In this document: positions 15,846 to 63,540 of the stretch, piece after piece
Numbering within the stretch: position 1 is the first letter of the stretch
How the letters are laid out: each line of letters opens with the position of its first letter
Assembly (NCBI GenBank): GCA_949317995.1
Contig: OX439038.1
Location: 32,944,613 to 33,008,612, forward strand
Reading direction: 5' to 3'
DNA from: Acholoe squamosa
Taxonomy: Eukaryota; Annelida; Polychaeta; Phyllodocida; Polynoidae
Length of the DNA: 64,000 bases
Made by a program: the position numbers and the translations under genes
The notes under the pieces: generated by a model
Told to the model about the DNA's origin: nothing
Database searches by the model: none
The model's input: only the letters and a program-made list of their open reading frames with translations

Positions 15846-15996
15846 TAGAAGAGGGAGTGCTAGAAGAAAATGGATAGGAAAAGGGAATGTGTTAAGAGAA
15901 TGTGTTGATATAGGCAATATATGAGTGAGGAATGTGTCCTCAAAAGGAGGCAATATTTTCTGTATGTGGTATGTGTCATGTGTAAAGCCATTGGTG

Positions 15997-17370
15997 AGGA
16001 GTGACTGACCGAACACCCTGTGTATGTGGTATAAGGGTGACTGACCGTGCACCATGTGCCTGTGGTATAAGGGTGAATGATCAAGCACCCTGTGTCTGTG
16101 GTATAAGGGTGAATGATCGAGCACCCTGTGTCTGTGGTATAAGGGTGACTGATCGAGCACCCTGTGTCTGTGGTATAAGGGTGACTGACCGATCACCCTG
16201 TGTATGTGGTATAAGGGTGACTGATCGAGCACCCTGTGTCTGTGGTATAAGGGTGACTGATCGAGCACCCTGTGTCTGTGGTATAAGGGTGAATGATCGA
16301 GCACCCTGTGTCTGTGGTATGAGGGTGACTGACCGCGCACCATGTGCCTGTGGTATAAGGGTGACTGATCGAGCACCCTGTGTCTGTGGTATAAGGGTGA
16401 ATGATCAAGCACCCTGTGCCTGTGGTATAAGGGTGACTGACCACGCACCATGTGCCTGTGGTATAAGGGTGACTGACCCAGCACCCTGTGTCTGTGGTAT
16501 AAAGGTGAATGATCAAGCACCCTGTGTATGTGGTATAAGGGTGACAGACCACGCACCATGTGTATGTGGTATAAGGGTGACTGACCACGCACCATGTGTA
16601 TGTGGTATAAGGGTGACAGACCACGCACCATGTGTATGTGGTATAAGGGTGACTGACCACGCACCATGTGCCTGTGGTATAAGGGTGACTGACCCAGCAC
16701 CCTGTGCCTGCGGTATAAGGGTGACTGATCGAGCACCCTGTGTCTGTGGTATAAGGGTGAATGATCGAGCACCCTGTGTCTGTGGTATAAGGGTGACTGA
16801 TGGAGCACCCTGTGCCTGTGGTATAAGGGTGACTGACGGAGCACCCTGTGCCTGTGGCATAAGGGTGACTGACGGAGCACCCTGTGCCTGTGGTATAAGG
16901 GTGACTGACCCAGCACCCTGTGCCTGTGGTATAAGGGTGACTGACCGATCACCCTGTGCCTGTGGTATAAGGGTGACTGACCCAGCACCCTGTGCCTGTG
17001 GTATAAGGGTGACTGATCGAGCACCCTGTGTCTGTGGTATAAGGGTGAATGATCGAGCACCATGTGTCTGTGGTATAAGGGTGACTGACCGATCACCCTG
17101 TGTCTGCGGTATAAGGGTGACTGATCGAGCACCCTGTGCCTGTGGTATCAGGGTGACTGATGGAGCACCCTGTGCCTGTGGTATAAGGGTGACTGACGGA
17201 GCACCATGTGCCTGTGGCATAAGGGTGACTGATCGAGCACCCTGTGTCTGTGGTATAAGGGTGACTGACGGAGCACCCTGTGCCTGTGGTATCAGGGTGA
17301 CTGATGGAGCACCCTGTGCCTGTGGTATCAGGGTGACTGACCGACCATGCTGTCTCTGTGGTATAAGGGT
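15997..17370. repeat. 36-bp minisatellite, about 38 units, open in several frames
   Basis: Units close to GTGACTGATCGAGCACCCTG plus TGTCTGTGGTATAAGG repeat without indels. Because 36 is divisible by three and the unit lacks stops in several frames, long open frames exist on both strands (466 codons on plus, over 400 on minus). The plus frame gives a 12-residue repeat with an invariant CxC (PCVCGIRVTD-like). It has no ATG at its 5' end: a TGA lies just upstream of a GTG, and the first in-frame ATG is near 16319. I treat it as non-coding. Confidence 0.85.
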
Positions 17371-17399
17371 GACCAAGCATGCTGTGGGATCAGACCGCT

Positions 17400-17876
17400 A
17401 ATGGTTAGATCGCCCAGGGTCTATAATGACTGTCATGTATTGGTACATCACCCCTAGGGAGGCCTCGTGTGAAGACCCCAGTCCTGGTATCGCGCTCACC
17501 ACCCAGCCCCTGCAGGTCATTCGTGAAGACGGGTTGACAAAACTGACAATGACCAGCAGCCATTATTTCAGATGTTTACATTTTGAGCTTGATTGCTTTG
17601 CTTTGGCCTTGTATGGTGATGTTTACAGTCCAACATAGACAGCTGGGTATTGGAACTAGACAACTGGTGAAACCTTAGAGGGTAATGGCTTCAAGATTTG
17701 TGAAGTAGAGCTAGTTGACAGATTGGTAAAGGCTAGGCGCTACAACTGTGTGGTCTGATTGATTGGTGAAGTCTGAAGGGTAAGTCTACATGGCCGAAGG
17801 AGTTTAGAGGTTAAAGGCCAGGAGAGCTGGGTAATAGTACTTGGTTGCCACTTGGTGAGACAGTGAGAGTACTTAC
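17400..17876. other. Non-coding stretch after the 36-bp array
   Basis: Contains several GGTGAA/TTGG-type short motifs but no coding frame or repeat boundary. It would be intron if the adjacent exon call is right. Confidence 0.35.
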
Positions 17877-51199: not shown

Positions 51200-52990
51200 G
51201 AATGTCACAGCAGATTCTAGCAGATTCTCTACTTGGTAATATCCATGCATCTAAAGTTCATTCTCAAAACCATGAGTTTCCCGGGGGAATATTGCTTTTA
51301 GAGATAAGAAGAACAATGGTTTCTGTTGATAGTGACACATTTTCAGTTAGTGTAACAGGTGTGTGGTGGAGGTTGGGCTGGGTGCCGGTGGGTTGACAGC
51401 TCTTTTTGTGGCTGGATCCCTAGTATAATTACTAGGAGTTATTTGTTTGTGTGGTGAGCGGCACTCTTGCGTTTAGGAGACTGTGGGAGGGGGTTGAAAC
51501 CAATGAAGCCACTATGTACAGCTTTATTATAGGACTGTAACGTGTTCACTGCAGCGCCATGACAGTGGTAGGAGATGTGGAAAACACACAGCAACTTGGC
51601 AATAAGCTGTATCATGTATGAAATGCTTTACATCTGACCTAAATATTTATCAAATTGTATAAACCTGAAAATCGCAGAATGTTATCAACACAAGTTGTTA
51701 GATTGGAATTGTTGAATGTATTTTTCCTGGTCAAATTTGTATTCATGTGAATGTAGTTCAAATCAATTTCCTTCTAGTATCTATATCATAGAGTATGAGT
51801 ACAATGTTTCCTGACATTATATCTATAATGTTTTTGCTGTATGAGCCTTCTGAAAATGCTCCAGTGGCTATGAGCAAAAGGTGTCAATTTTAGGGCAAAC
51901 CTTCACCTATGAAAACTGTCATCCTGTAACAAGTTTCCAATGGATCTTAACGGGACTTATACTGATGGATTTCAAACTTGTCAGGCTTTCTAATGAATAG
52001 TGTTTTAACTACCTGTGTTAGGTTTTGAAACATAGCTGGGGTACCTACTTATAGGATGTTCCTAACATCATCAGTTTTTTTTGTTTTTTTTTAAATGGGG
52101 CCGGAGAGTGGGGGAAAAACGATAATGAAGGGAGTCGGGATTTTTATCTAGCAAGATCCACGAATGGAAAAAAGCAAGTTGGTTTATGATTTGGGGGGGG
52201 GGGGGCTAAATGGCTGCCTACACAATTCATAGGCAACAGCTATGGCTGTACTTTCCAGGAGAAGATAATTTTCAGGAAACCATGATACAGTATGTTAACA
52301 CTCGATGAGCTTCGCATTGAAATGTGATCCACACCCACCTTGCAACATCACCTGTATGTATGTGTAGGTATCATTACACGGAATTCCTGACATGGGGAAT
52401 ATCACAAATGCCATGCAAAAAAAAAATGTGTTGTACATCCACGTGCTTAAATGTTTGCAATAAGCCCCTACAACTGCGATAAAATCTATGTCTGTAAGGT
52501 ATGATACAGTTACAGTGTGCTGATATTGGGTGAGTTGGGGGATGGGGGAGGGACGTGCGGGCAGGTGCAAAGAAGGAGCAGTGAGAGCTAGAGGCAGCAT
52601 ACATAAATATCAGTGGGCGGTGGTGACAGCAGGCTACTTTATTACAGGTACACACAGGCAATCATATGTAATACCAGACACCTGTGGGAACCTACACCAC
52701 CAATATCTAGTTCTATACCTGTGATGCTCAACTGTTGAGGCCAATGGCAAAGTAATTTAAGCATTGTAGGGCAATTACCCGGTAGCACTATTATTAGACT
52801 AACGGTGCTACCTTGAAATGCGCCTGCTGTTGCGCTTTCATTAACTTTCTTTTTAATTGTCATCATCCTTTATCACTCTTTATTCACATTCTTTTGTAAT
52901 ATGTTTTAAACTGCTCTCATGAATAATAGCATAGGGGCAATTTGCAAGTCATTTACTTTGACTGAGGAATGAATATATATATATATATGC
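51200..52990. other. Non-coding stretch before the retrotransposon pair
   Basis: No exon or repeat boundary was recognised except a G-run at 52190-52204. It ends in a (TA)n tract at about 52974-52988, which is the insertion context of the next element. Confidence 0.4.
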
Positions 52991-52995
52991 AACTG

Positions 52996-53011
52996 TATAC
53001 ACTCGTGTATA
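52996..53011. promoter_or_regulatory. Putative recombinase core site in A1
   Basis: TATACAC and GTGTATA form perfect 7-bp arms around a 2-bp centre (TC). The same arms recur in A2 (57377-57392) and, with a CC/GG centre, in both A repeats of the other subfamily (58309-58324, 62570-62585). Conservation across diverged elements next to the junction suggests recombinase binding. Confidence 0.5.
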
Positions 53012-53106
53012 TTTATATAATTATTCGCGAACGGTTAGGGACTACTTGCAGCGCGCATTGGTATCTATGATGTCATAGCATGACGTCATGGTCAACACTC
53101 CTCCAG

Positions 53107-53113
53107 TATATAA
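53107..53113 (+). promoter_or_regulatory. TATA box in A1
   Basis: TATATAA lies 119 bp upstream of the gag ATG, and an identical copy is in A2 (57488-57494). The other element has TATATAA at the matching place in its A repeats. It probably drives the genomic transcript. Confidence 0.55.
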
Positions 53114-53162
53114 GGAGAAGTTTCAAGGTAACGGTCAATTGGATTGATTCACCTGTACAGGT

Positions 53163-53180
53163 AACACCACGCTGGGTGTT
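53163..53180 (+). promoter_or_regulatory. 5' leader hairpin with conserved CACCACGCTGGGTG
   Basis: AACACC pairs with GGTGTT around loop ACGCTG. Element B has the same 14-nt core with a longer, different outer stem (GGCAC/GTGCC). Its position between the TATA box and gag suggests a leader RNA structure, for example for packaging or translation. Confidence 0.4.
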
Positions 53181-53231
53181 TCCTTGATTTTTAACGGTTT
53201 TTCTTGGTTGATACTTGATTTTTGGATCAAG

Positions 53232-54257
53232 ATGGGGAGGAAATCAACTAGAAGTGCTACTTCTTCTAAAAAATCGGCCAAATCGGCGAAGAAAACGGTG
53301 GAATCGGCCAATTTAGGACTTTCGAGTGAGTTGGATTCGTCTTGTGTGGATCGGAGATCTACATCGCCCCACCATGCTAAGGGGTTGGAAGACAATCGGT
53401 TCACTGACCAGACGGAGAGGCTGGAGTCGTTAGAGGATGAACTATGCAATATCAAAGGCTTGCTACAGGATTTGGTTGCTGGAAGGGACGGAAAAGACAA
53501 GACGAAACCTACGGAGGGGGCGTGGCATGATACACGTGCGAATGTTTGTAAACGACCTGTGACGTCATCGCATCAAGTGCGCAGCCGCGTATCCAGGCAG
53601 CGGTCTCCCAGCGTCCTTAGTGACGGTTCGAAATGGGACGAAGTCGTGCATCGTGGTCGTCGTCGGAGATCAAAATCATCTTTCTCTACTCGTCACAGAC
53701 CTCGGTCGTCTTCAGGAGGGTCGTCAATAGATTCCTCTACATCCAGGCTTCACACCAATACCAAATGTGGTGAGTTTGATCATGAAATGTATGTAAAAAA
53801 ACGGGAAAAGATCGATACCGTTGAGAAGTTGATGTTGGTCAACTTGAATTTTGTCTTAGACTATTACAAGGACAGCAGAGATGTAGAAGGCATGTTAAAA
53901 CATCTCCAAGTTCTGGTTGAAAAGGCTGGTACTAGAATGTATACGGTAGCAGCTCTAGTGGCATATGATAAATCAGTTAGGACCAGGGCAAATAATGATG
54001 GGATAGAAGCTTTTGGTGTTATAGACAATTCGGATATTCTCCGTCACTTGTCCTATGATGGGACAGTTCAGGCCCAAAGGGCTTATTCAACCAAACCAAA
54101 AAATTCTGTTAAACCTAGGGTCTCTACGAACTCATGCTATGCATTTAACAGGGCAGAGGGTTGCTCTAGGGACCCATGTAAATATAGGCATGTGTGCAGC
54201 TCGTGCACTAAAGCAGGCCATAATAAGTTAGATTGTCATGTTAGCAAGTCTGATTAG
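53232..54257 (+). CDS. gag: Element A Gag-like protein
   Basis: This 341-residue protein starts MGRKSTRSA, the same start as in element B (MGRKGTTSG). Open sequence extends 16 codons upstream but without an ATG. The N-terminal half is Ser/Arg/Lys-rich and probably disordered. The middle has a conserved helical segment with KREKIDTVEKLMLVN and a conserved ILRHLSYDGTVQAQ motif. The C terminus has two zinc motifs: Cx8Cx4Cx3H (residues 302-320) followed at once by a Cx2Cx4Hx4C knuckle (322-335). These identify a nucleic-acid-binding structural protein expected to package element RNA in a particle. It ends in UAG (54255-54257), and the same frame stays open into pol. It is intact, while the two downstream genes are broken. 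Confidence 0.85.
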   Translation: MGRKSTRSATSSKKSAKSAKKTVESANLGLSSELDSSCVDRRSTSPHHAKGLEDNRFTDQTERLESLEDELCNIKGLLQDLVAGRDGKDKTKPTEGAWHDTRANVCKRPVTSSHQVRSRVSRQRSPSVLSDGSKWDEVVHRGRRRRSKSSFSTRHRPRSSSGGSSIDSSTSRLHTNTKCGEFDHEMYVKKREKIDTVEKLMLVNLNFVLDYYKDSRDVEGMLKHLQVLVEKAGTRMYTVAALVAYDKSVRTRANNDGIEAFGVIDNSDILRHLSYDGTVQAQRAYSTKPKNSVKPRVSTNSCYAFNRAEGCSRDPCKYRHVCSSCTKAGHNKLDCHVSKSD

Positions 54258-54334
54258 GATTTTGCAGGTGAGCTGGGTCCTATATGTGACAGTGTATCGA
54301 TGTCAAAGTCACGTATAGTAGGTTTGGTAGACCC
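54255..54334 (+). promoter_or_regulatory. Putative UAG readthrough signal (element A)
   Basis: The gag stop UAG is followed by 14 sense codons in the same frame up to the first pol ATG (54300). A predicted stem follows. GGGTC (54275-54279) pairs with GACCC (54330-54334). Directly adjoining, CTATATGTGAC (54280-54290) pairs with GTCACGTATAG (54308-54318) over 11 positions, one of them U-G. An 11-nt bulge lies between the two helices on the 3' side, and the loop is 17 nt. Element B has the same geometry with compensatory pair changes. Reinitiation at 54300 is the alternative. Confidence 0.55.
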
Positions 54335-56341
54335 TAGTTCGCCCCCACCCGCTGCTCCAGCTCGGGGTGTTGGTGTTTTTGAGGCTGGAGAAGTAGATTT
54401 GGTCTCTCTGGATTATATCAGAGAAAGCTCAGGTGCCTATAGTCCTTATGTGGAATGTGTAGCAAATCTACAATTAAATGTTGAAGATGATATTAATATA
54501 TCGTATGGTGGCCCAGTACAGGGCATGGTTAGACCATTTTTTACTGTCGCTATTGAAAATTTACCTAGCATCGAAGTGTATGATAGCTGTATAAATGGTG
54601 TATGCGATTGTGTTCATTATATCAATGGGAAAAATTCCCAAATTTTATCTTGCAGAGTTGCCTCCTTCTTAACTCAGAAAGGTATTATTAATGTAAATGA
54701 CAAGGAGGCGCTATTCTTATGGCAAGGTTTTGTTGAGGGGTTCAGAATAGTGGATCCTGACTGCAATACTTCTTATGATTGCAGAAATTATAAGTCAATC
54801 CTCGAGGGAAAATTCTATAATGAGTACTGTGGTATATTGTTAGATGAACTAGAAGCTGGTCTAGTCTCTAAGAGTGTAGATAAACCCCGTTGTATCCATG
54901 CCCTAGGTGGTGTAGAAAAATCAAATGGCAAGTTAAGACCCATAACTGACTGTAGTATGCCTGATAAAATATCTATCAATAATTTTATGGATACTACTAG
55001 CTCGACATTCTCTTATAATAATATTAGCACGGTGACTGCTCAATTGAATAAGAACGATTTCATGAGTGTGGTAGATTTAAAGTCAGCGTATAGGTCTATA
55101 AATGTGTATGCACCTCACACGACCATGCAAGGTTTCAGATGGAATTTTGGGCATGGAGAGGGTTATTATGTGAGCAACAGGTTAACTTTTGGCCTGAAAT
55201 GTGCCCCGTATATTTTTAATAAAATCTCTGATTTTATTGTGGAGGTGGCAAAATTCTACGGTGTAGAAAAAATTGTAAATTATCTGGACGACTTTATCAT
55301 AATTGCTGATACTTATGATGAGTGTCTTAGACAAAGGATTTTTTAATGGAGTGTATGGCGTACATGGGTTTTGTAGTATCCAAAGAAAAGGTGACCGACC
55401 CATCTCAAGTTTGTAAATTCTTAGGCATTAACATAGATTCAGTTAAGTTGGAACTGTCTTTGCCTATTGAAAAGGTTGAAAAAATGGAAAATCTCTTATT
55501 GGATAATGTTAATAAGAAATTTATTTCTAAAAAGAACTTAGAGAGGATAGGTGGTTACATGTCGTTCTGCTCACAGGTGGTTAAGGGTGGTAGAACGTTC
55601 AGCAGGAGAGTCTTCTATTTGTGTGCTCGAGCTAAGCCTAGGGGCTATATAAGGGTTTCTGAATGTACCAGACGTGACCTTCAGTGGTGGTTGGATTTTT
55701 GTAGAGTTTTTAACTGTAGGAGGTTAATTCTAAATGATGGTATTGATACACCTATGTACTCAGACTCTTCCATGAAAGGCTTCGGGGCTTGGATGGATAA
55801 AGATTATTTATATGGTGACTGGACATCTTACGATAAATTCAGTCTAGGTAGTGGTCATTTTACACAACCTCCAATACTAGACAATTTGAGAAATCACCAT
55901 AGAAATATAAATGTATACGAGTTGTATCCCCTTCTTATGGGACTTAGACGTTGGATATCTAGCTGTAAAGATAAAAGAATACACTGTATTACTGATAATA
56001 TGCAAGTTCTAGCTATGATTAATACCGATAGGTCAAAAAATAAGCTTTGTATGGAATGGCTTAGAGAAATTTTTTGGCTTTGTTTCATCAATAATGTGGA
56101 GGTGTATGCAACCTATATTAAGTCAGAAGACAATGTCCTGGCCGACCATCTTTCTAGACTTGCTTACAAGGGTGTTCTAGACAAATGTATAACTTCTCTC
56201 CATGAAAATGAAATGTGCTGCTTTAATTCCAGAATGGAAAAGGTTACAAAAAAGAAAAAAGTGTCTTTTAGCGAAGGGTGTGTCAGAGAACACGAGGAGA
56301 GCAAGGAAACAACAACTCAACAGGTACAAAAAATTTTGTAA
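54300..56341 (+). pseudogene. pol: Element A Pol: reverse transcriptase-RNase H, frameshifted
   Basis: The first part (54300-55346) carries the reverse transcriptase fingers and palm: KLRPITDCSMP, motif A VVDLKSAYRSI (catalytic Asp near residue 259) and the YLDD box at residues 328-331. A run of six T at 55339-55344 then shifts the frame into a TAA. The rest (about 55346-56341, -1 frame) continues exactly where element B continues. It holds the connection and an RNase H domain with YSDSSMKGFGAW, VYELYP, CITDN and NVLADHLSRL acidic/His motifs. The most likely cause is loss of one T in the run. A slip of the ribosome on the T run is possible but would be odd inside this domain. The gene ends 140 nt inside the recombinase gene, which is in another frame. 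There is no protease or integrase domain. Confidence 0.85.
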
Positions 56342-57155
56342 TAAATTTAATTTACCTAAATTTCCTTGTTCTCCCTCACAGGCTGCTACATATGCAGTAT
56401 ATTTATCTAGTTATATGAAACCTTCTTCTGTAAGAAATTATTTATCATCCATTTGGTATCATTAAAAAATTAATGGTGGCTTAGACCATAGCGGTAATTT
56501 CATGCTAAAAAAGGTGTTGGTTGGTATTGAGAGAAATTATTCTGTTCCTTCTAGGGTTACTCACCCATTGAGTCCGAAGGAAATGTTATGTATTAGATCT
56601 TATTTGGATCTCTCCAACAGGGCTGACTTGAAATTTTGGTTAGCTATTCTCTTATGTTACAGAGGTGTCCTCAGGGTAGGACATGTGGTATCTTCTCCAC
56701 ATACACTAAGGGTAGGTGATGTTAAAGTATGTAAAAGTTATGCTAGTCTTCGCATTAGAACTTCTAAAACGGACCAGCTTGGTTGCCATTCTTTTAATGT
56801 GTATTTATGTAGGGATGATACCTCACTGTTATGTCCTTGTAAGGACCTAGGAAAATTGTGCACAGGTAGGGGTGGAAGTGAGTTATTATTCAAAATTAAT
56901 GGTGTTCCTCTACAGTACCAATATATTAATTCGAGGTTGAAATCTCTATCTATACGTGCTGGTATCAAAGGTTCAGTCTCCACTCATTCACTTAGGCATG
57001 GTGGTGCTACTATGTTAAAGGATGCAGGACTTAGTGTAGATTCTATTAAAAAGAAGGTAAATTGGAAATCTAATTCTGTTTTTACATATTTACATAATCA
57101 TAAAAATGAACTTTTGGAATTAGATAGACTTTGCCAATCTCAATTGCATTGTTGA
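56202..57155 (+). pseudogene. Element A tyrosine recombinase, nonsense codon
   Basis: The 954-nt frame would encode 317 residues but is broken by TAA at 56463-56465, after residue 87, where element B has Gln. Before the break it holds the N-terminal SAM-like DNA-binding part (YKKFCNKF, PCSPSQAATYAVYLS). After the break come the catalytic parts: box I Arg in CYRGVLRVGHV, the HSLRHGG motif (H262 and R265), the WKSN segment and the nucleophile Tyr near residue 296 in TYLHN. The R-HxxR-W-Y set is that of phage-integrase-type recombinases that insert circular element DNA. The start ATG at 56202 lies inside pol, in the +1 frame relative to it, exactly as in element B. Confidence 0.85.
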
Positions 57156-57200
57156 TTGGTATGTGTTTTCACATGTGTTTGGCATGTTTTTATGTGTTTT

Positions 57201-57366
57201 GGCATGTATGGTGCTGATAGCCCCAAGGTCAGTAACCCACCAAACTCATGTGTCTGTGATATGATCATTTATTATACTACTTCTCGTATATTATTACTAC
57301 TGTATATATCAACATTATTAGTATCGTTATTACCGGTATTTATTATTCCCTGGCAGCGAAAGAACT
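57201..57366 (+). repeat. Element A repeat B1
   Basis: A 166-bp copy of B2, beginning GGCATGTATGGTGCTGATAG and ending GCGAAAGAACT. It follows the recombinase stop by 45 bp and joins A2 through TATGG. Confidence 0.9.
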
Positions 57367-57371
57367 TATGG

Positions 57372-57575
57372 AACTATATACACTCGTGTATATTTATATA
57401 ATTATTCGCGAACGGTTAGGGACTACTTGCAGCGCGCATTGGTATCTATGATGTCATAGCATGACGTCATGGTCAACACTCCTCCAGTATATAAGGAGAA
57501 GTTTCAAGGTAACAGTCAATTGGATTGATTCACCTGTACAGGTAACACCACGCTGGGTGTTTCCTTGATTTTTAA
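57372..57575 (+). repeat. Element A repeat A2
   Basis: Differs from A1 by two substitutions. It includes a second TATA box (57488-57494), the palindrome (57377-57392) and the leader hairpin. It is followed by an AT-rich 118-bp spacer with TTATTACTA repeats and AATAAA. Confidence 0.9.
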
Positions 57576-57687
57576 ATTTTTACTACTGTTATTACTATTG
57601 TTATTACTATTGTTATTACTATACTACTGTTATTATATTATGCATTTTACTGACTATGCTTTGTCAACTAATTGTTATAGTTGTTTT

Positions 57688-57693
57688 AATAAA
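57688..57693 (+). terminator. Poly(A) signal AATAAA of element A
   Basis: AATAAA directly precedes B2 (GGCATGTA). Element B has AATAAA at the same place directly before its B2, so B2 or its start would be the transcript 3' end. Confidence 0.5.
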
Positions 57694-57859
57694 GGCATGT
57701 ATGGTGCTGATAGCCCCAAGGTCAGTAACCCACCAAACTCATGTGTCTGTGATATGATCATTTATTATACTACTTCTCGTATATTATTACTACTGTATAT
57801 ATCAACATTATTATTATCGTTATTACCGGTATTTATTATTCCCTGGCAGCGAAAGAACT
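57694..57859 (+). repeat. Element A repeat B2 (3' end)
   Basis: Matches B1 apart from a single substitution noted near its right end. It ends GCGAAAGAACT at the (TA)n junction (57860-57876) shared with element B. Confidence 0.9.
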
Positions 57860-57873
57860 ATATATATATATAT

Positions 57874-58010
57874 ATAAGTTAATCATGTTCGTTGGGAATA
57901 ATAATAACAAATATTATAATAAATATTATATCAATATTACAAATGGAATAAGGAAGGAGACAGTGGGTTTGGTGAGAATTGACTTGGTCAATATCAATTC
58001 TGTACATGCC
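57874..58010 (-). repeat. Element B repeat B2 (3' end)
   Basis: A 137-bp copy of B1. On the minus strand it starts GGCATGTACAGAATTG and ends GATTAACTTAT within the (TA)n junction. It shares the initial GGCATGTA with the B repeats of element A. Confidence 0.9.
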
Positions 58011-58016
58011 TTTATT
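58011..58016 (-). terminator. Poly(A) signal AATAAA of element B
   Basis: Minus-strand AATAAA immediately before B2, the same position as in element A. The preceding spacer is AT-rich, with TATAACAATA-type repeats. Confidence 0.5.
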
Positions 58017-58127
58017 AAGACAATAATTTGAATAAATACATAAATACAATATAACAATATAAATACAATATAACAGTAAAATACAATATAACAATGTAAT
58101 ACAATATATACAAGATAAGATTTAAAA

Positions 58128-58334
58128 GTTAAAATTTCCGGCACCACCCAGCGTGGTGTGTGCCGCTATGAGAAAACTCGCCAACTGACGGTTAATTTGG
58201 ATCCCGCAGTTTATATAGGTGCTGGATGTTTACGGTGACGTCACACATACCAATGCGCGCCCCTGGAGGAAAAGTAGGTCCAGCCACTGCACATATTAAT
58301 TATAAATATATACACGGGTGTATATAGTCCCATA
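58128..58334 (-). repeat. Element B repeat A2
   Basis: A 207-bp copy of A1, with the palindrome TATACAC-GG-GTGTATA (58309-58324) and a TATA box (58211-58217, minus strand). It overlaps B1 by 3 bp at the junction. Confidence 0.9.
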
Positions 58335-58468
58335 AGTTAATCATGTTCGTTGGGAATAATAATAACAAATATTATAATAAATATTATATCAATATTACAA
58401 ATGGAATAAGGAAGGAGACAGTGGGTTTGGTGAGAATTGACTTGGTCAATATCAATTCTGTACATGCC
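58332..58468 (-). repeat. Element B repeat B1
   Basis: A 137-bp copy of B2 located 36 bp past the recombinase stop. It joins A2 through TTATGGGACT, almost the same junction as in element A (TTATGGAACT). Confidence 0.9.
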
Positions 58469-58504
58469 AAAAACCGCCAAACACAATGGATACACCATTC
58501 CTCA

Positions 58505-59413
58505 CTACAACATCACATCCAGAGCTAGTAGGTCTTGCTTAGAATCATGTAAATAATTATATACCACATTAGATTTCCAATTTGCTCTCTTTTTAATATC
58601 ATCGACATTTAACCCAGAGTTCTTTAGAAGTGTTGCTCCACCATGTCGGAGTGAATGAGTTGAAACTCTGTAGGGAATATCACATTTTATAGCAATAGCT
58701 TTCAACCTGGTATTAACATAGTTATAAGTTAAAGGTTTGTTTCCTATAGTGAACAATAGTCTACTATTAGATGTCTTACAAATTTCCAAGTATCTAGCTG
58801 GACAAAGACCAGAATAATCATTTCTTTTCAAATATACCACGTAAGGTTTCCTACCATATTGGTCAGTTTTAGAGGATCTAACATCAATGCGAATGCAGTC
58901 AATAGATAAGGAAACACTTTTAGATTTAAAGTTATGAGGGGAATCGACTACATGACCCACCCTGAACACACCTCGGTAACACAATAAGATAGCTGACCAG
59001 AAGACCACATCCTCATATACAGACAAATTCAATTTCGATTTGATCTTCAACATATCACTGGGAGTTAATGGATTTGTTTTAATAGAAGAACCTCTATAAT
59101 TACGTTCAATACCATCCAGTGTCTTTTTAACAATGAAACTACTACTATAATCAGAATAACCTTTTAATTTCTGATAATACCATACTGCGGATAAATAATT
59201 TCTAACCGATATAGGTTTCATTTTATCTGATAAATATACACTATACAACGAGGCTTGAGAAGGAGAACAAGGTAGGGGAATAAAGTTAAATTTTTTACAA
59301 AATTTTTTGTACCTGCCGAACTGATGTTTGCGAACCTTACGTGTGGACTCAGCCACGCCCCTGTACAAAACCCTTCTCCTTCTCCGCTCTAGCTCCCTCA
59401 GATCTGGAAGCAT
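58505..59413 (-). CDS. Element B tyrosine recombinase
   Basis: An intact 302-residue protein, the usual size for recombinases of this group. The N-terminal part has basic residues (ERRRRRVLYRG) and a SAM-like domain (YKKFCKKF, PCSPSQASLYSVYLSDKM). The catalytic domain shows box I Arg151 (CYRGVFRVGHV), a probable hairpin Lys182 (RSSKTDQ), His253 and Arg256 (THSLRHGGAT), Trp279 in the second-histidine position, and the nucleophile Tyr287 (NYLHD). It would cut and rejoin circular element DNA and genomic target through a 3'-phosphotyrosine link. The ATG at 59413 lies 65 nt inside the end of pol, in the +1 frame, so translation probably uses termination-reinitiation, leaky scanning or a separate mRNA. 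Confidence 0.92.
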   Translation of the reverse strand: MLPDLRELERRRRRVLYRGVAESTRKVRKHQFGRYKKFCKKFNFIPLPCSPSQASLYSVYLSDKMKPISVRNYLSAVWYYQKLKGYSDYSSSFIVKKTLDGIERNYRGSSIKTNPLTPSDMLKIKSKLNLSVYEDVVFWSAILLCYRGVFRVGHVVDSPHNFKSKSVSLSIDCIRIDVRSSKTDQYGRKPYVVYLKRNDYSGLCPARYLEICKTSNSRLLFTIGNKPLTYNYVNTRLKAIAIKCDIPYRVSTHSLRHGGATLLKNSGLNVDDIKKRANWKSNVVYNYLHDSKQDLLALDVML

Positions 59414-61268
59414 AGCAACACATGTTATAACTAGTTAAAACATTTTTACATTTCAGAGGAACACCTTTGTAATTTAGTCTAGACAAATGGTCTGCTAAAA
59501 CATTTTCCTCAGATTTAATATATGTTGAATATATTTCAATATTATGTATAAAACATAACCAAAAAATTTCTCTCAACCAGGACATACACAATTTATTCCT
59601 GGATCTACCAGTGTTCAACATGGCCAAGACTTGCATGTTGTCCGTTATACAATGAACTCTAGTGTTGGAAAACTTCTTCACCCAGCGTTTAAGACCTACC
59701 ATTACTGGGTAAAGCTCGTACACATTAATATTTCTGTGGTGAATTTTCAGATTATCAAGTTTTGGGGCATGAACAAAATGACCCACACAGTCCAACATAG
59801 GGTTAGAATCGTCCCAAGTACCATACAAATAATCCTTATCAAACCAGGCTCCAAAGCCCTGTATAGAGGAATCGGAATACATAGGAGTACATTCATTATC
59901 ATTTAGGATGATATTTCTACAATTGAAAATTCTACAAAAATCCCTCCACCACAGTAGGTCATTTTGAGTTTCCTCATTAAGTTTAATAACACCCCTACTC
60001 CTGGCTCTAGCGCAGAGATCGAACAATCTCCTGCTGAAAGTTCTTCCACCCCGTACTACTTGGGAGCAGAATGACATCAAACCACCAATTTTCTGCAACG
60101 TCTTCTTAGATACGAATTTTTTACCCAAACACTCGTCTATAGCCGAGCTCATTTTATCTAGCTTCTTCTGTGGAAGCGACAACTCCATGGCCGTAGAGTC
60201 AATGGTTATACCCAAAAAAGTACACACCTGGTTGGGCTCAGTCACCTTCTCTTTCGACACAACAAAACCTAGATATTCCATACACTCGATTAGGGTGTTC
60301 CTCTTACGTAAACAATCCTCCTCAGTTTTAGCTATGATAATAAAATCATCTAGGTAGTTTACTATCCTATCTACACCATAAAATTTTGCAATAATAGTCA
60401 AAAAATCAGATATTCTACTAAATATATATGGAGCACACTTTAGACCAAATGTCAACCGATTACTCTCAAAAAACTCATCTCCATTGCCAAAATTCCACCT
60501 GAAGCCTTGATAGCCTACATGTGGGCCATAAACGTTAATACTTCTATATGCAGACTTCAAGTCCACCACACACATAAAATCATTTCTATCAAGTTGGCAA
60601 GTAACAGTGTTAATAGAGTTATACGAGAAGCTCCTGGACGTTGTGTTCATAAAGTTATTAATAGAGATATCCGCTGGCATACTGCAATCAGTGATGGGAC
60701 GAAGCTTACCATTAGATTTTTCCACACCCCCTAGGGAGTGAATACATTTAGGTTTACACTCAGTTTTAGTAACCAGGCCTTGGTTCAACTCCTCCACAAT
60801 AATGCTACACATCTCGTCATAAAATCTATCCTCTAAAATAGACTTATAATTTTTACAATCATATGTTGTATCACACCCCGGGTCAATAATTTTGAAACCC
60901 TCGGTAAAACCACACCATAGAAAATCAGATTCAATCTGATTGATATTAATAAGGTCGGACTGTCTAAGAAAACTAGCAAGTCGACATGGGAGTATTTGAG
61001 CCTTTCTACCATAAATGAAATGCTCACACCTACATACACCGTTAACACAACTATCATAGACCTTGATGCTGGGTCTATTTAAACATTCCACCGTGAACAG
61101 TGGTTCAACCTCACCCTGTACTGGGCAACTATAAGAATTAAATAAATTCTTTGACAATTCACAGGAGTCATACATATTTACACTATCATTATTGACATTT
61201 TCACCCGGAATGATAAAAACGGGAGGCTCAGGAAGGTCTACCGTACATACTACACTAGAATCAGGCAT
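59349..61268 (-). CDS. pol: Element B Pol: reverse transcriptase-RNase H
   Basis: 639 residues from the first ATG (61268), but the frame is open back to the gag stop, 45 nt earlier. The N-terminal third has a conserved Cys-rich stretch (YDSCVNGVCRCEHF) of unknown role. The reverse transcriptase has KLRPITDCSMP, motif A VVDLKSAYRSI (Asp236), the GLKCAPYIFSR motif and YLDD (305-308). The thumb/connection includes GGLMSFCSQV. The RNase H acidic residues are Asp466 (YSDSS), Glu518 (VYELYP), Asp543 (CITDN) and Asp593 (LADHLSRL). The protein would copy the element RNA into DNA and remove the template. No protease, integrase or methyltransferase is present, as in the Ngaro group. It is intact, unlike its homologue in element A. 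Confidence 0.93.
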   Translation of the reverse strand: MPDSSVVCTVDLPEPPVFIIPGENVNNDSVNMYDSCELSKNLFNSYSCPVQGEVEPLFTVECLNRPSIKVYDSCVNGVCRCEHFIYGRKAQILPCRLASFLRQSDLININQIESDFLWCGFTEGFKIIDPGCDTTYDCKNYKSILEDRFYDEMCSIIVEELNQGLVTKTECKPKCIHSLGGVEKSNGKLRPITDCSMPADISINNFMNTTSRSFSYNSINTVTCQLDRNDFMCVVDLKSAYRSINVYGPHVGYQGFRWNFGNGDEFFESNRLTFGLKCAPYIFSRISDFLTIIAKFYGVDRIVNYLDDFIIIAKTEEDCLRKRNTLIECMEYLGFVVSKEKVTEPNQVCTFLGITIDSTAMELSLPQKKLDKMSSAIDECLGKKFVSKKTLQKIGGLMSFCSQVVRGGRTFSRRLFDLCARARSRGVIKLNEETQNDLLWWRDFCRIFNCRNIILNDNECTPMYSDSSIQGFGAWFDKDYLYGTWDDSNPMLDCVGHFVHAPKLDNLKIHHRNINVYELYPVMVGLKRWVKKFSNTRVHCITDNMQVLAMLNTGRSRNKLCMSWLREIFWLCFIHNIEIYSTYIKSEENVLADHLSRLNYKGVPLKCKNVLTSYNMCCYASRSEGARAEKEKGFVQGRG

Positions 61269-61316
61269 CAAACTATCAGAACCCAATGTAGGACCTTGCC
61301 CAAGTGAATTTTCCTA
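61233..61316 (-). promoter_or_regulatory. Putative UAG readthrough signal (element B)
   Basis: The minus-strand UAG (61316-61314) is followed by 15 sense codons in frame before ATG 61268. Counting from the base after UAG, AAGGTC (17-22) pairs with GACCTT (76-81), and the adjoining CTACATTGGG (23-32) pairs with TCTAGTGTAG (55-64), three pairs being G-U. An 11-nt bulge (65-75) separates the two 3' strands, as in element A (TA-GT--GGTA shared). The helix junction falls at the same distance from the stop in both elements. Confidence 0.55.
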
Positions 61317-62342
61317 GTCTTTCTTGTTCCTTTGACATTTGTCTTTACCATGGTTTGACATACCACAAATCTCACAAATATGACGATACCTGCACGGGTC
61401 CTCCCTGCAACCCTCGGCCCTGTTGAAAGCATAACAGGTTCGGTTGGATTGTTTTGATTTGAAAGACTTAGGCTTAGACCCACCCGCCTTCTGCGCTTGC
61501 ACCGTTCCGTCATATGACAGGTGCCTCAGAATATCCTCACTTTTAACATCGCCAAACGATCCAACACCCTCAAAATTAGCCCTATTCTTGACCGCTGAGT
61601 CGTATGCTACGAGAGCCTTTAACGTGTATATTTTAGTAGAGGATTTTTCTACCAGAACTTCAATATGCTTAACCACATCGAACACATCTTCACCCTCCTC
61701 TAGCAACTGCTTAACCATTCTAACGTTAACGATCAGAAGTTTCTCGATACTGTCCATTTTTTCACCTTTCTTCAAGAAATTTTTCTGTTCAAACGTACCT
61801 CTAGACTTTGTAGCATGTCGACGGTTACTCCTTGAGGCATTAGATCCAATAGAACCCGATGAATCCGTGGAAACACTACGGTACGAAGACGATCTACTCG
61901 AAGATCCAAGATGGCGACGACCTGCCCTGTCGCCGTGGAGACCCCGGTAGTCAGGCGAGCGCTGCCGGCCACGCCCTCGTTGCTTGGTTACCATGTTGAC
62001 TGTGGAATGTTTATAAACACCACCACGTGCACGACCCGTCTCAGCCTCGCCAGTCGCTGTTGAAGTACTTGCTCGATTAACCGCCTGGTTCTCCAATAAG
62101 GACCGGATATCTTCGAGCTGCTGCTCCATACGAGTAGTACGTTCCTCCAGCTCCCCGATATACGTCTGGTCAACAGGCAAATCCAATGAAACCCCAGTAG
62201 CAGTTGGGGAAGATGATCCATGACCACCCCCATTGGAATCTACACTGCTCGAAATCCTAGAGTTGGCATGTTTCCTCAGTTTTTTAGGCGATTTCTTGGT
62301 CTTAGGCCTTTGTGTGCCGCTAGTTGTTCCTTTCCTACCCAT
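61314..62342 (-). CDS. gag: Element B Gag-like protein
   Basis: A 342-residue intact protein starting MGRKGTTSG, 47 nt after the end of the A1 repeat. Residues 1-60 are basic and Ser/Lys-rich. A coiled-coil-like stretch with ELEERTTRMEQQLEDIRSLL follows, a likely oligomerisation helix. A Ser/Arg-rich region leads to the conserved KGEKMDSIEKLLIVN and ILRHLSYDGTVQAQ segments shared with element A. The C terminus has Cx8Cx4Cx3H (303-321) and a Cx2Cx4Hx4C knuckle (323-336). The role is RNA binding and particle assembly. It ends in UAG with pol in the same frame directly beyond. Confidence 0.88.
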   Translation of the reverse strand: MGRKGTTSGTQRPKTKKSPKKLRKHANSRISSSVDSNGGGHGSSSPTATGVSLDLPVDQTYIGELEERTTRMEQQLEDIRSLLENQAVNRASTSTATGEAETGRARGGVYKHSTVNMVTKQRGRGRQRSPDYRGLHGDRAGRRHLGSSSRSSSYRSVSTDSSGSIGSNASRSNRRHATKSRGTFEQKNFLKKGEKMDSIEKLLIVNVRMVKQLLEEGEDVFDVVKHIEVLVEKSSTKIYTLKALVAYDSAVKNRANFEGVGSFGDVKSEDILRHLSYDGTVQAQKAGGSKPKSFKSKQSNRTCYAFNRAEGCREDPCRYRHICEICGMSNHGKDKCQRNKKD

Positions 62343-62388
62343 AATGATAGGTTAAACACCGTATTAACTTGGAAAAACGGACAAAACC

Positions 62389-62595
62389 GTTAAAATTTCC
62401 GGCACCACCCAGCGTGGTGTGTGCCGCTATGAGAAAACTCGCCAACTGACGGTTAATTTGGATCCCGCAGTTTATATAGGTGCTGGATGTTTACGGTGAC
62501 GTCACACATACCAATGCGCGCCCCTGGAGGAAAAGTAGGTCCAGCCACTGCACATATTAATTATAAATATATACACGGGTGTATATAGTCCCATA
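62389..62595 (-). repeat. Element B terminal repeat A1 (5' end)
   Basis: A 207-bp copy of A2. It holds the palindrome (62570-62585), a minus-strand TATA box (62472-62478) and the leader hairpin core CACCACGCTGGGTG with outer stem GGCAC/GTGCC and one bulged A. Outside it lies (TA)n at 62593-62609. Confidence 0.9.
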
Positions 62596-62609
62596 TATAT
62601 ATATATATA

Positions 62610-63540
62610 GTCATTACCGAATGTTCTCTATTCTGTAAACAGGAAATCATCGCCAGGTAAAAACTAAGAACCCTGGTCTGGATTTTTTTTATTAAATCCC
62701 CTTTCTTTTGAATCGGCTTTAAGAGCATGTCTTTGTCCTATCCTAATGACATTATCTGTTGTATTCTAACACCCAGACGTATCATTGTAAAGTTGGTATT
62801 TCCTATTTCTCTTTTTCTGTTTTCTGGGTACATAAAAAGAGATGTCCTGTGGTGCAGCCGTCTCTCTGTCCATTCAACATTCCCTACCCAAGTCAGAACC
62901 AGACACTTGGACTTGGGCTTTCAGTGAAAAAAAAAGTGATGTCCTTTTTTTGTTAGTGAAATAGATGGTTTTAAATGACAGACAAAAAAGTATGCTCCCC
63001 ACATTCCATTCAATATAAAACATCCAAGACGGATGCAGGAATCATCTGTGAAATGAAAACAATTATTATGTTTGTGAAAATGGCTAAATTGTACTTGTGT
63101 AGGTACATTGGGATATAGTCACTCGTAGATATAGTTATACCAAGACAAAAATCAGTTAGATGATAGGCATTTGTATTTGACATGCAGATGACAAGACTCC
63201 CCTCGACGCCCCAGTCTTAAAGAAGGGGTGGAGGAATGTCTCTTCTCCCTCCCAAAACTTGAAAATCAAATAAATACAAAGACCTTATCACAAAACCCGG
63301 GCACAAAATGCACACGTTAAAAAATCGTGGGATATGTGTCTCAAAACAGATGGGAAATGTCAGCAAATACTACCTCTCTATGAATACCTTATACTGGCAT
63401 TTGTCTATGCATCAGTGTGCTCTGGCCTAGCCCCCCTACCCCCTCTCTCTACCTGATCATCAGTGATAGTGCTTCATGTGTAGGAGCGGCCTCAATGAGC
63501 TACACATGGTGAGCTGCTCGTCTCCACCACAGCTCCAGCA
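62610..63540. other. Non-coding stretch, nothing recognised
   Basis: AT-rich DNA with no coding frame of interest, no repeat boundary and no splice-bounded exon. Confidence 0.4.

Follow-up and report, generated by a model that had tools for sequence, protein, structure and literature searches.

Two Ngaro-type retrotransposons in the window

The window, which comprises all 64,000 nucleotides analyzed here from contig OX439038.1 of Acholoe squamosa, contains two Ngaro-type retrotransposons placed tail to tail, element A at positions 52986-57859 on the forward strand and element B at positions 62595-57863 on the reverse strand. Both are built as A1-[gag, pol, tyrosine recombinase]-B1-A2-B2, with the internal repeats following the recombinase gene. 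In element A, repeat A1 (52986-53194; family D15) is 99% identical to repeat A2 (57367-57575; also family D15), and repeats B1 (57201-57366) and B2 (57694-57859) both belong to family D18. The gag gene runs from its first ATG at 53232 to 54257 within an open reading frame at 53148-54257, and its C-terminal end displays a zinc-knuckle-like motif (identified by eye) followed by UAG. The part of pol bearing the reverse transcriptase occupies 54258-55346, where the open frame stops, and the next part continues in another frame from 55331. The open part of the tyrosine recombinase gene lies at 56466-57155 with a stop codon just upstream. Copy A is thus partly decayed, with a break in the pol frame near 55340 and a stop near 56465.

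In element B, by contrast with this partly decayed copy, gag, pol and the recombinase gene are all open. Read along the reverse strand, it consists of repeat A1 (62389-62595; family D16, 100% identity), gag from its first ATG (61314-62342), pol with 654 codons (59349-61313), the tyrosine recombinase gene (58505-59434), repeat B1 (58321-58468; family D20, 97%), repeat A2 (58128-58334; family D16) and repeat B2 (57863-58010; family D20). The recombinase gene and the end of pol overlap in different frames.

The domain content was analyzed by comparison with Pfam. The reverse transcriptase domain PF00078 scored 50.9 bits in element A and 62.4 bits in element B (cut-off 29.6), and the tyrosine recombinase domain PF00589 scored 44 and 42.4 bits in the two elements (cut-off 27.1). 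RNase H (PF13456) fell just under the cut-off in element A, at 20.5 versus 21.6 bits, and was not listed for element B. No methyltransferase domain was detected by Pfam in the seven open reading frame pieces of the two elements. Ngaro elements are described with the same A1-[ORFs]-B1-A2-B2 layout in the sections consulted of two reports (PMC8547959, PMC4157794), and the elements studied here resemble them in the repeat layout, in the order gag, reverse transcriptase, tyrosine recombinase and in having no methyltransferase. The label Ngaro-like, under which both elements were initially annotated, therefore holds by anatomy, that is, by the split direct repeats and the domain content.

The ends of elements A and B lie a few bases apart, tail to tail, in TA-rich sequence at 57859-57863, and presumably they inserted independently of each other at almost the same site. 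Elsewhere in the window, a tandem array with a 36-bp period was observed at 15857-17401 (38 overlapping 300-nt register copies); the long open frames in this array are likely to be a by-product of a period divisible by three.

Copies sampled from the genome

Additional copies were collected by their reverse transcriptase from a single genome of 1.48 billion bases in 63 contigs, from which all of the DNA compared here is derived. Two reverse transcriptase queries gave 13,149 and 12,919 candidates at first look; 150 were scored for each query, and 100 copies (L001-L100) were taken, including the two copies in the window, L001 and L034. The junction between gag and pol was placed in 86 of these copies; in the other 14 the pol frame was broken or no reverse transcriptase motif was found. 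A further 8 loci had no anchor, and the 78 anchored junctions comprised 46 distinct sequences, which constitute alignment A1. The junction of element B (L034) is identical to that of L032. Representatives for the individual analyses were picked by hand: 19 and 14 copies for the checks of AUG codons and folds, 12 for the protein-preserving null and 11 for the window scan.

The copies fall into diverged groups, with an identity of only 51-61% when the junctions of groups A, B, C and D are compared with each other. Two observations suggest recombination between element families: L030 is a possible mosaic, with its 5' strand from one subgroup and its 3' end from another, and the pol tree splits copies L057 and L067 of group B3.

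Protein relatives of pol were found elsewhere (274 matches, 120 of them listed). Searches with pol in the viral contig, genome contig and phage sequence sets yielded no relatives. The Gag protein of element B gave 3991 candidates in a search of 5.8 billion proteins, none at E<=0.001. A search of positions 52900-62700 against Rfam gave only two hits with E<=1, and each scored far less than the gathering threshold of its family.

A UAG codon separates gag and pol

The gag and pol genes are separated by a UAG codon at 54255-54257 on the forward strand in element A and at 61316-61314 on the reverse strand in element B. The initial annotation had claimed that the two genes share one frame in both elements, interrupted by this UAG and by no other stop ahead of the first pol ATG, and the sequences and reading frames bear this out.

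The observation is confirmed beyond the two copies from which it came. Among the 86 placed junctions, the stop was UAG in 78, UAA in 6 and UGA in 2. All loci in which gag stays open over 100 codons or more contained UAG (74/74), and gag was open for fewer than 100 codons in all eight loci with UAA or UGA. Viewed from the stem described below, UAG was located directly 5' in 96 of the 98 loci that matched the stem model; the two exceptions were L078, which has UAA and a broken gag, and L082, in which UAG is present and the match to the model starts inside it. Even the unusually long open frames of L081 (965 codons) and L108 (935 codons) still hold the UAG. Eight further short stretches, five of which represent a new group E, all contained UAG.

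In the 78 anchored copies, UAG was followed by G in 70 and by U in 8, and preceded by GAC, GAA or GAT in 77. In group B3 (L057-L060, L063, L065, L067, L078, L106 and L108) the base after the stop is U rather than G, and the stem is kept.

The frame after UAG was open beyond the first methionine codon in all of 19 representative copies. Most copies of groups A, B and C contain an AUG at codons 15-17 after the stop, within the hairpin loop of the stem. The first in-frame ATG of group D was found at codon 116 (L084) or 235 (L086), and there was none before codon 22 in L085 or codon 34 in group E.

Anatomy of the stem downstream of UAG

In element A, a long stem is predicted from nucleotide 10 to nucleotide 86 after UAG, a span of approximately 77 nt. 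Its outer helix pairs nucleotides 10-17 (54267-54274) with nucleotides 79-86 (54336-54343). Helix 1 is formed by nucleotides 18-22 (54275-54279) and 73-77 (54330-54334), and helix 2 by nucleotides 23-33 (54280-54290) and 51-61 (54308-54318). An 11-nt bulge ending in GGUA separates the 3' strands of helices 2 and 1 (54319-54329). The stem of element B, on the reverse strand, follows the same plan with a hairpin loop that is one codon longer: the outer helix consists of nucleotides 10-15 (61299-61304) and 82-87 (61227-61232), helix 1 of nucleotides 17-22 (61292-61297) and 76-81 (61233-61238), and helix 2 of nucleotides 23-32 (61282-61291) and 55-64 (61250-61259), with the 11-nt 3' bulge, also ending in GGUA, at 61239-61249.

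The two-part stem with a helix junction at nucleotides 22/23 and a 3' bulge of 11 nt in both elements had been proposed in the initial annotation and was recovered here, but its extent had been set too short since the outer helix was missed. The differences between A and B reported at positions 18, 26, 29, 30 and 32 and the unchanged pair at position 28 were correct at all six positions. Pair 33 of element A is lost in element B.

The stem starts at nucleotide 10 after UAG in groups A and B, at nucleotides 12-13 in groups C and D and at about nucleotide 8 in group E. The spacer between UAG and the stem is approximately 9 nt, with 7 nt in group E and 11-12 nt in group C. The register of the outer helix differs between groups; its paired cells amounted to 92/96 in A, 16/16 in D, 105/105 in B, 48/49 in B3 and 53/60 in C, a descriptive count in that the registers were chosen on the same sequences that were counted.

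Little or no variation is seen in seven of the 11 columns of the bulge. Its terminal GGUA is complementary to UGCC, UGUC or UAUC of the hairpin loop and could pair with it, a pairing allowed in 98.9% of cells, with no pair changed on both sides and with codons that may be constrained by the protein. Judging from these complementary motifs, the loop and the bulge may possibly form a short pseudoknot, which the initial annotation had overlooked. In the search for a distal partner of the bulge, complementary stretches were found in A and in B, none of them common to both elements.

Evidence for selection on the stem

The 46 distinct junctions of alignment A1 were used to analyze the conservation of the pairing. 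Of the cells representing the 16 core pairs, 92.8% are paired, as compared to 74.2% after shuffling and 25-43% with the partner strand slid. Changes on both sides were seen in 12 of the 16 core pairs across the 46 junctions from five diverged groups. The covariation score was 0.604, as compared to 0.249 for shuffled alignments, in which the relatedness of the copies is not preserved, and at most 0.134 for slid alignments. RNAalifold, run unprompted, returned identical core helices, and 13 of its 18 pairs carry changes in both strands.

A scan for conserved folds in 11 representatives, covering about 1.1 kb of gag and pol, identified the junction window as the strongest of 54 overlapping windows (z -9.82; 7 windows gave no score). 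Windows overlapping the junction scored -6.38 and -4.73, and the best non-overlapping window, located in gag, scored -4.55. A second, weaker signal of a conserved fold was observed in gag about 359-219 nt before UAG, in three windows with z values from -3.5 to -4.6.

We also compared the pairing with a protein-preserving null, for which the pairs were fixed on element A and synonymous codons were re-drawn in the other groups. The representatives of groups C, D, B and B3 jointly keep 58 of 64 pairs, whereas the mean of the null was 46.3 and only 1 of 5000 draws reached the observed number. Relative to A, 9 pairs differ in group C (L012), 7 of them on both sides, with 8 remaining paired; in group D (L084) 8 pairs differ, 7 on both sides, and 6 still pair; and in group B (L032) 6 pairs differ, 5 on both sides, and 5 still pair.

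The signal was less uniform for single copies. Compared to dinucleotide shuffles, element A alone gave a z value of -4.25 and element B alone a value of only -1.12. Against codon re-draws, the z values of 14 copies ranged from -3.46 to +0.52, and L010 and L084 were no more stable than their re-draws. The protein-preserving test on single copies gave P above 0.05 in 6 of 12. A pairwise test that ignores base pairing, and in which substitutions are re-dealt along a tree to give the null, identified no significant core pair with either of two trees and so did not support the stem, in an alignment of some five deep groups only, for which its power is low; the sole pair at E<=0.05 on both trees was 3-83, which is not a helix pair. 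Thus, the covariation expected in a larger alignment was found relative to the shuffled, slid and protein-preserving controls, but not by the structure-blind tree-based test.

The stem model R1 matched 98 of 100 loci; it was built from 46 of them and a further 32 share those sequences, which makes 20 loci independent of the model. Among the stretches collected later, R1 matched 3 of 8 and none of the five copies of group E. When refolded, 4 of the 5 group E copies form a UGCCU/AGGCA stem with an 8-nt bulge whose energy differs by 0-1.7 kcal/mol from that of the best fold, with alternative folds of nearly equal energy. Group E therefore supports the combination of UAG with a stem, but not this exact stem. 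Taken together, the stem model matches 98/100 loci and no in-frame stop precedes the first methionine codon in 19/19 copies, as the initial annotation would have it, with group E (0/5) departing from the modeled form of the stem.

Proposed interpretation as a readthrough signal

We propose that the UAG and the stem constitute a programmed stop-codon readthrough signal for the synthesis of Gag-Pol, and we assign this reading a probability of about 0.82. The UAG is fixed, gag and pol share one frame, the stem is conserved and carries compensated changes, and it is located directly behind the stop. Readthrough is the most likely explanation since the UAG has been kept amid change, pol is in frame and the stem sits where stimulators sit, so that the reading offered in the initial annotation gains support from the larger set of sequences. 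According to this model, most ribosomes would terminate at UAG and release Gag, and a minority, meeting the extended bulged stem after the spacer, would decode UAG as an amino acid and continue into Gag-Pol. The fusion protein would supply reverse transcriptase, and probably RNase H too, in a set ratio to Gag. We infer a stimulatory role for the stem, the synthesis of the Gag-Pol product and a functional importance of its ratio to Gag.

An unlikely alternative is that the stem is a selected RNA element for packaging, dimerisation, reverse transcription or RNA stability, while UAG serves as an ordinary stop of gag and Pol is made otherwise. The data support a selected structure without fixing its role, and a bulge with so many (nearly) invariant columns is what might be expected of a binding site. 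However, the stem directly follows the stop in the sampled groups, the shared frame of gag and pol runs through it and every open copy has UAG, features that a packaging signal would not need.

Less probable by a clear step is termination followed by reinitiation, or internal entry, with Pol starting from an AUG past the UAG and the stem acting as a guide. The AUG within the hairpin loop of most A, B and C copies would suit such a mechanism, but the first AUG is far downstream in groups D and E, and L085 has none among its first 21 codons after the stop, although all three have kept the UAG, and D and L085 have kept the stem as well. The positions in D (codons 116 and 235) and E (codon 34) imply that a start of Pol at a nearby AUG is not the general way, and reinitiation close to the stop was rejected on these grounds.

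Bypass of the UAG at the RNA level, either by splicing that skips it or by A-to-I editing to a tryptophan codon, is marginally more improbable still. A donor-like stretch was seen by eye shortly 3' of UAG in element A and is absent, again by eye, from B and C. The stop itself is not part of the stem, which lies 3' of it. Decay or an assembly artefact, with UAG as a chance stop in a dead frame and coincidental pairing, has a negligible probability despite the partial decay of copy A, because UAG and stem recur in numerous copies from four groups (A, B, C and D) with strongly diverged junctions; a decay stop was rejected from the counts of UAG in open-gag copies and stem-matching loci given above. 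Frameshifting was rejected since gag and pol share one frame.

Comparison with known readthrough systems

In the sections covered of a review of viral readthrough (PMC3542737), type III signals consist of UAG followed by G or a purine-rich stretch and some 3' structure: UAG-G, an 8-nt spacer and a compact pseudoknot in gammaretroviruses, UAG-R and an extended stem-loop in epsilonretroviruses, and UAG-GGR in Tombusviridae. The elements studied here resemble the retroviral type III systems as described there in being reverse-transcribing, in having UAG mostly followed by G, in the in-frame arrangement of gag and pol and in the logic of Gag to Gag-Pol, and they resemble type III signals in general in that the structure starts approximately 8-13 nt 3' of the stop. 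They differ from the type III base context in group B3, where U follows UAG (8/78), and from the gammaretroviruses in having an extended bulged stem of approximately 77 nt instead of a compact pseudoknot. Unlike the retroviral systems, the element is a tyrosine-recombinase retrotransposon, a class that lacks the retroviral protease and the DDE integrase in the account given in part of another paper (PMC3783388), and its signal is predicted from sequence.

Another related system is the SL-PRTE of Tombusviridae, an extended stem whose bulge, in the lower 3' half, forms base pairs with a distal 3' element, according to the passages available (PMC3234231, PMC3542737). The present elements share with it the long stem just 3' of UAG and the lower 3' bulge, which is conserved here, but elements A and B have no distal bulge partner in common, and a local pairing of loop UGCC with GGUA is possible instead. 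As far as these sources describe it, the anatomy matches type III readthrough signals in viruses.

The fission-yeast Ty3/Gypsy retrotransposons Tj1, Tcry1 and Tosmo1-3 likewise have gag and pol separated by a stop in frame, interpreted as programmed readthrough, but differ in using UGA with a short linear context; an extended covarying stem is not described in the covered part of that report (PMC10085805). All open reading frames were reported to overlap in two Xenopus Ngaro-like families, in the portion of the paper at hand (PMC9210276), and the UAG arrangement is therefore not general to the Ngaro group.

The terms "readthrough" and "read-through" are absent from the main texts of five papers on Ngaro and its relatives from Cafeteria, Xenopus, kinetoplastids, fungi and nematodes. 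No gag-pol readthrough signal, and no paper linking readthrough with these elements, was found in the literature covered, which is mostly of the non-subscription kind and, to our knowledge, does not include the first descriptions of Ngaro, nor did that literature yield an account of how Ngaro or DIRS elements set the ratio of Gag to Pol.

Implications for tyrosine-recombinase retrotransposons

The readthrough trick is known from viruses; within the literature covered, no published report of it for Ngaro-type elements was found. On balance, we slightly favor a broader view in which tyrosine-recombinase retrotransposons carry a structured UAG readthrough signal similar to the viral type III, in the form of an extended stem with a conserved 3' bulge that docks on its own hairpin loop. 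In this view the signal arose independently of retroviruses or goes back to an ancient common trait, and it was kept while the junctions diverged to 51-61% identity. If the readthrough reading is true, structured readthrough, so far a viral mechanism, would be found in one more class of retroelements. The signal would be concrete and testable, with many natural variants in a single genome, and these variants would serve as a ready-made collection in which the important parts of a readthrough stem could be identified.
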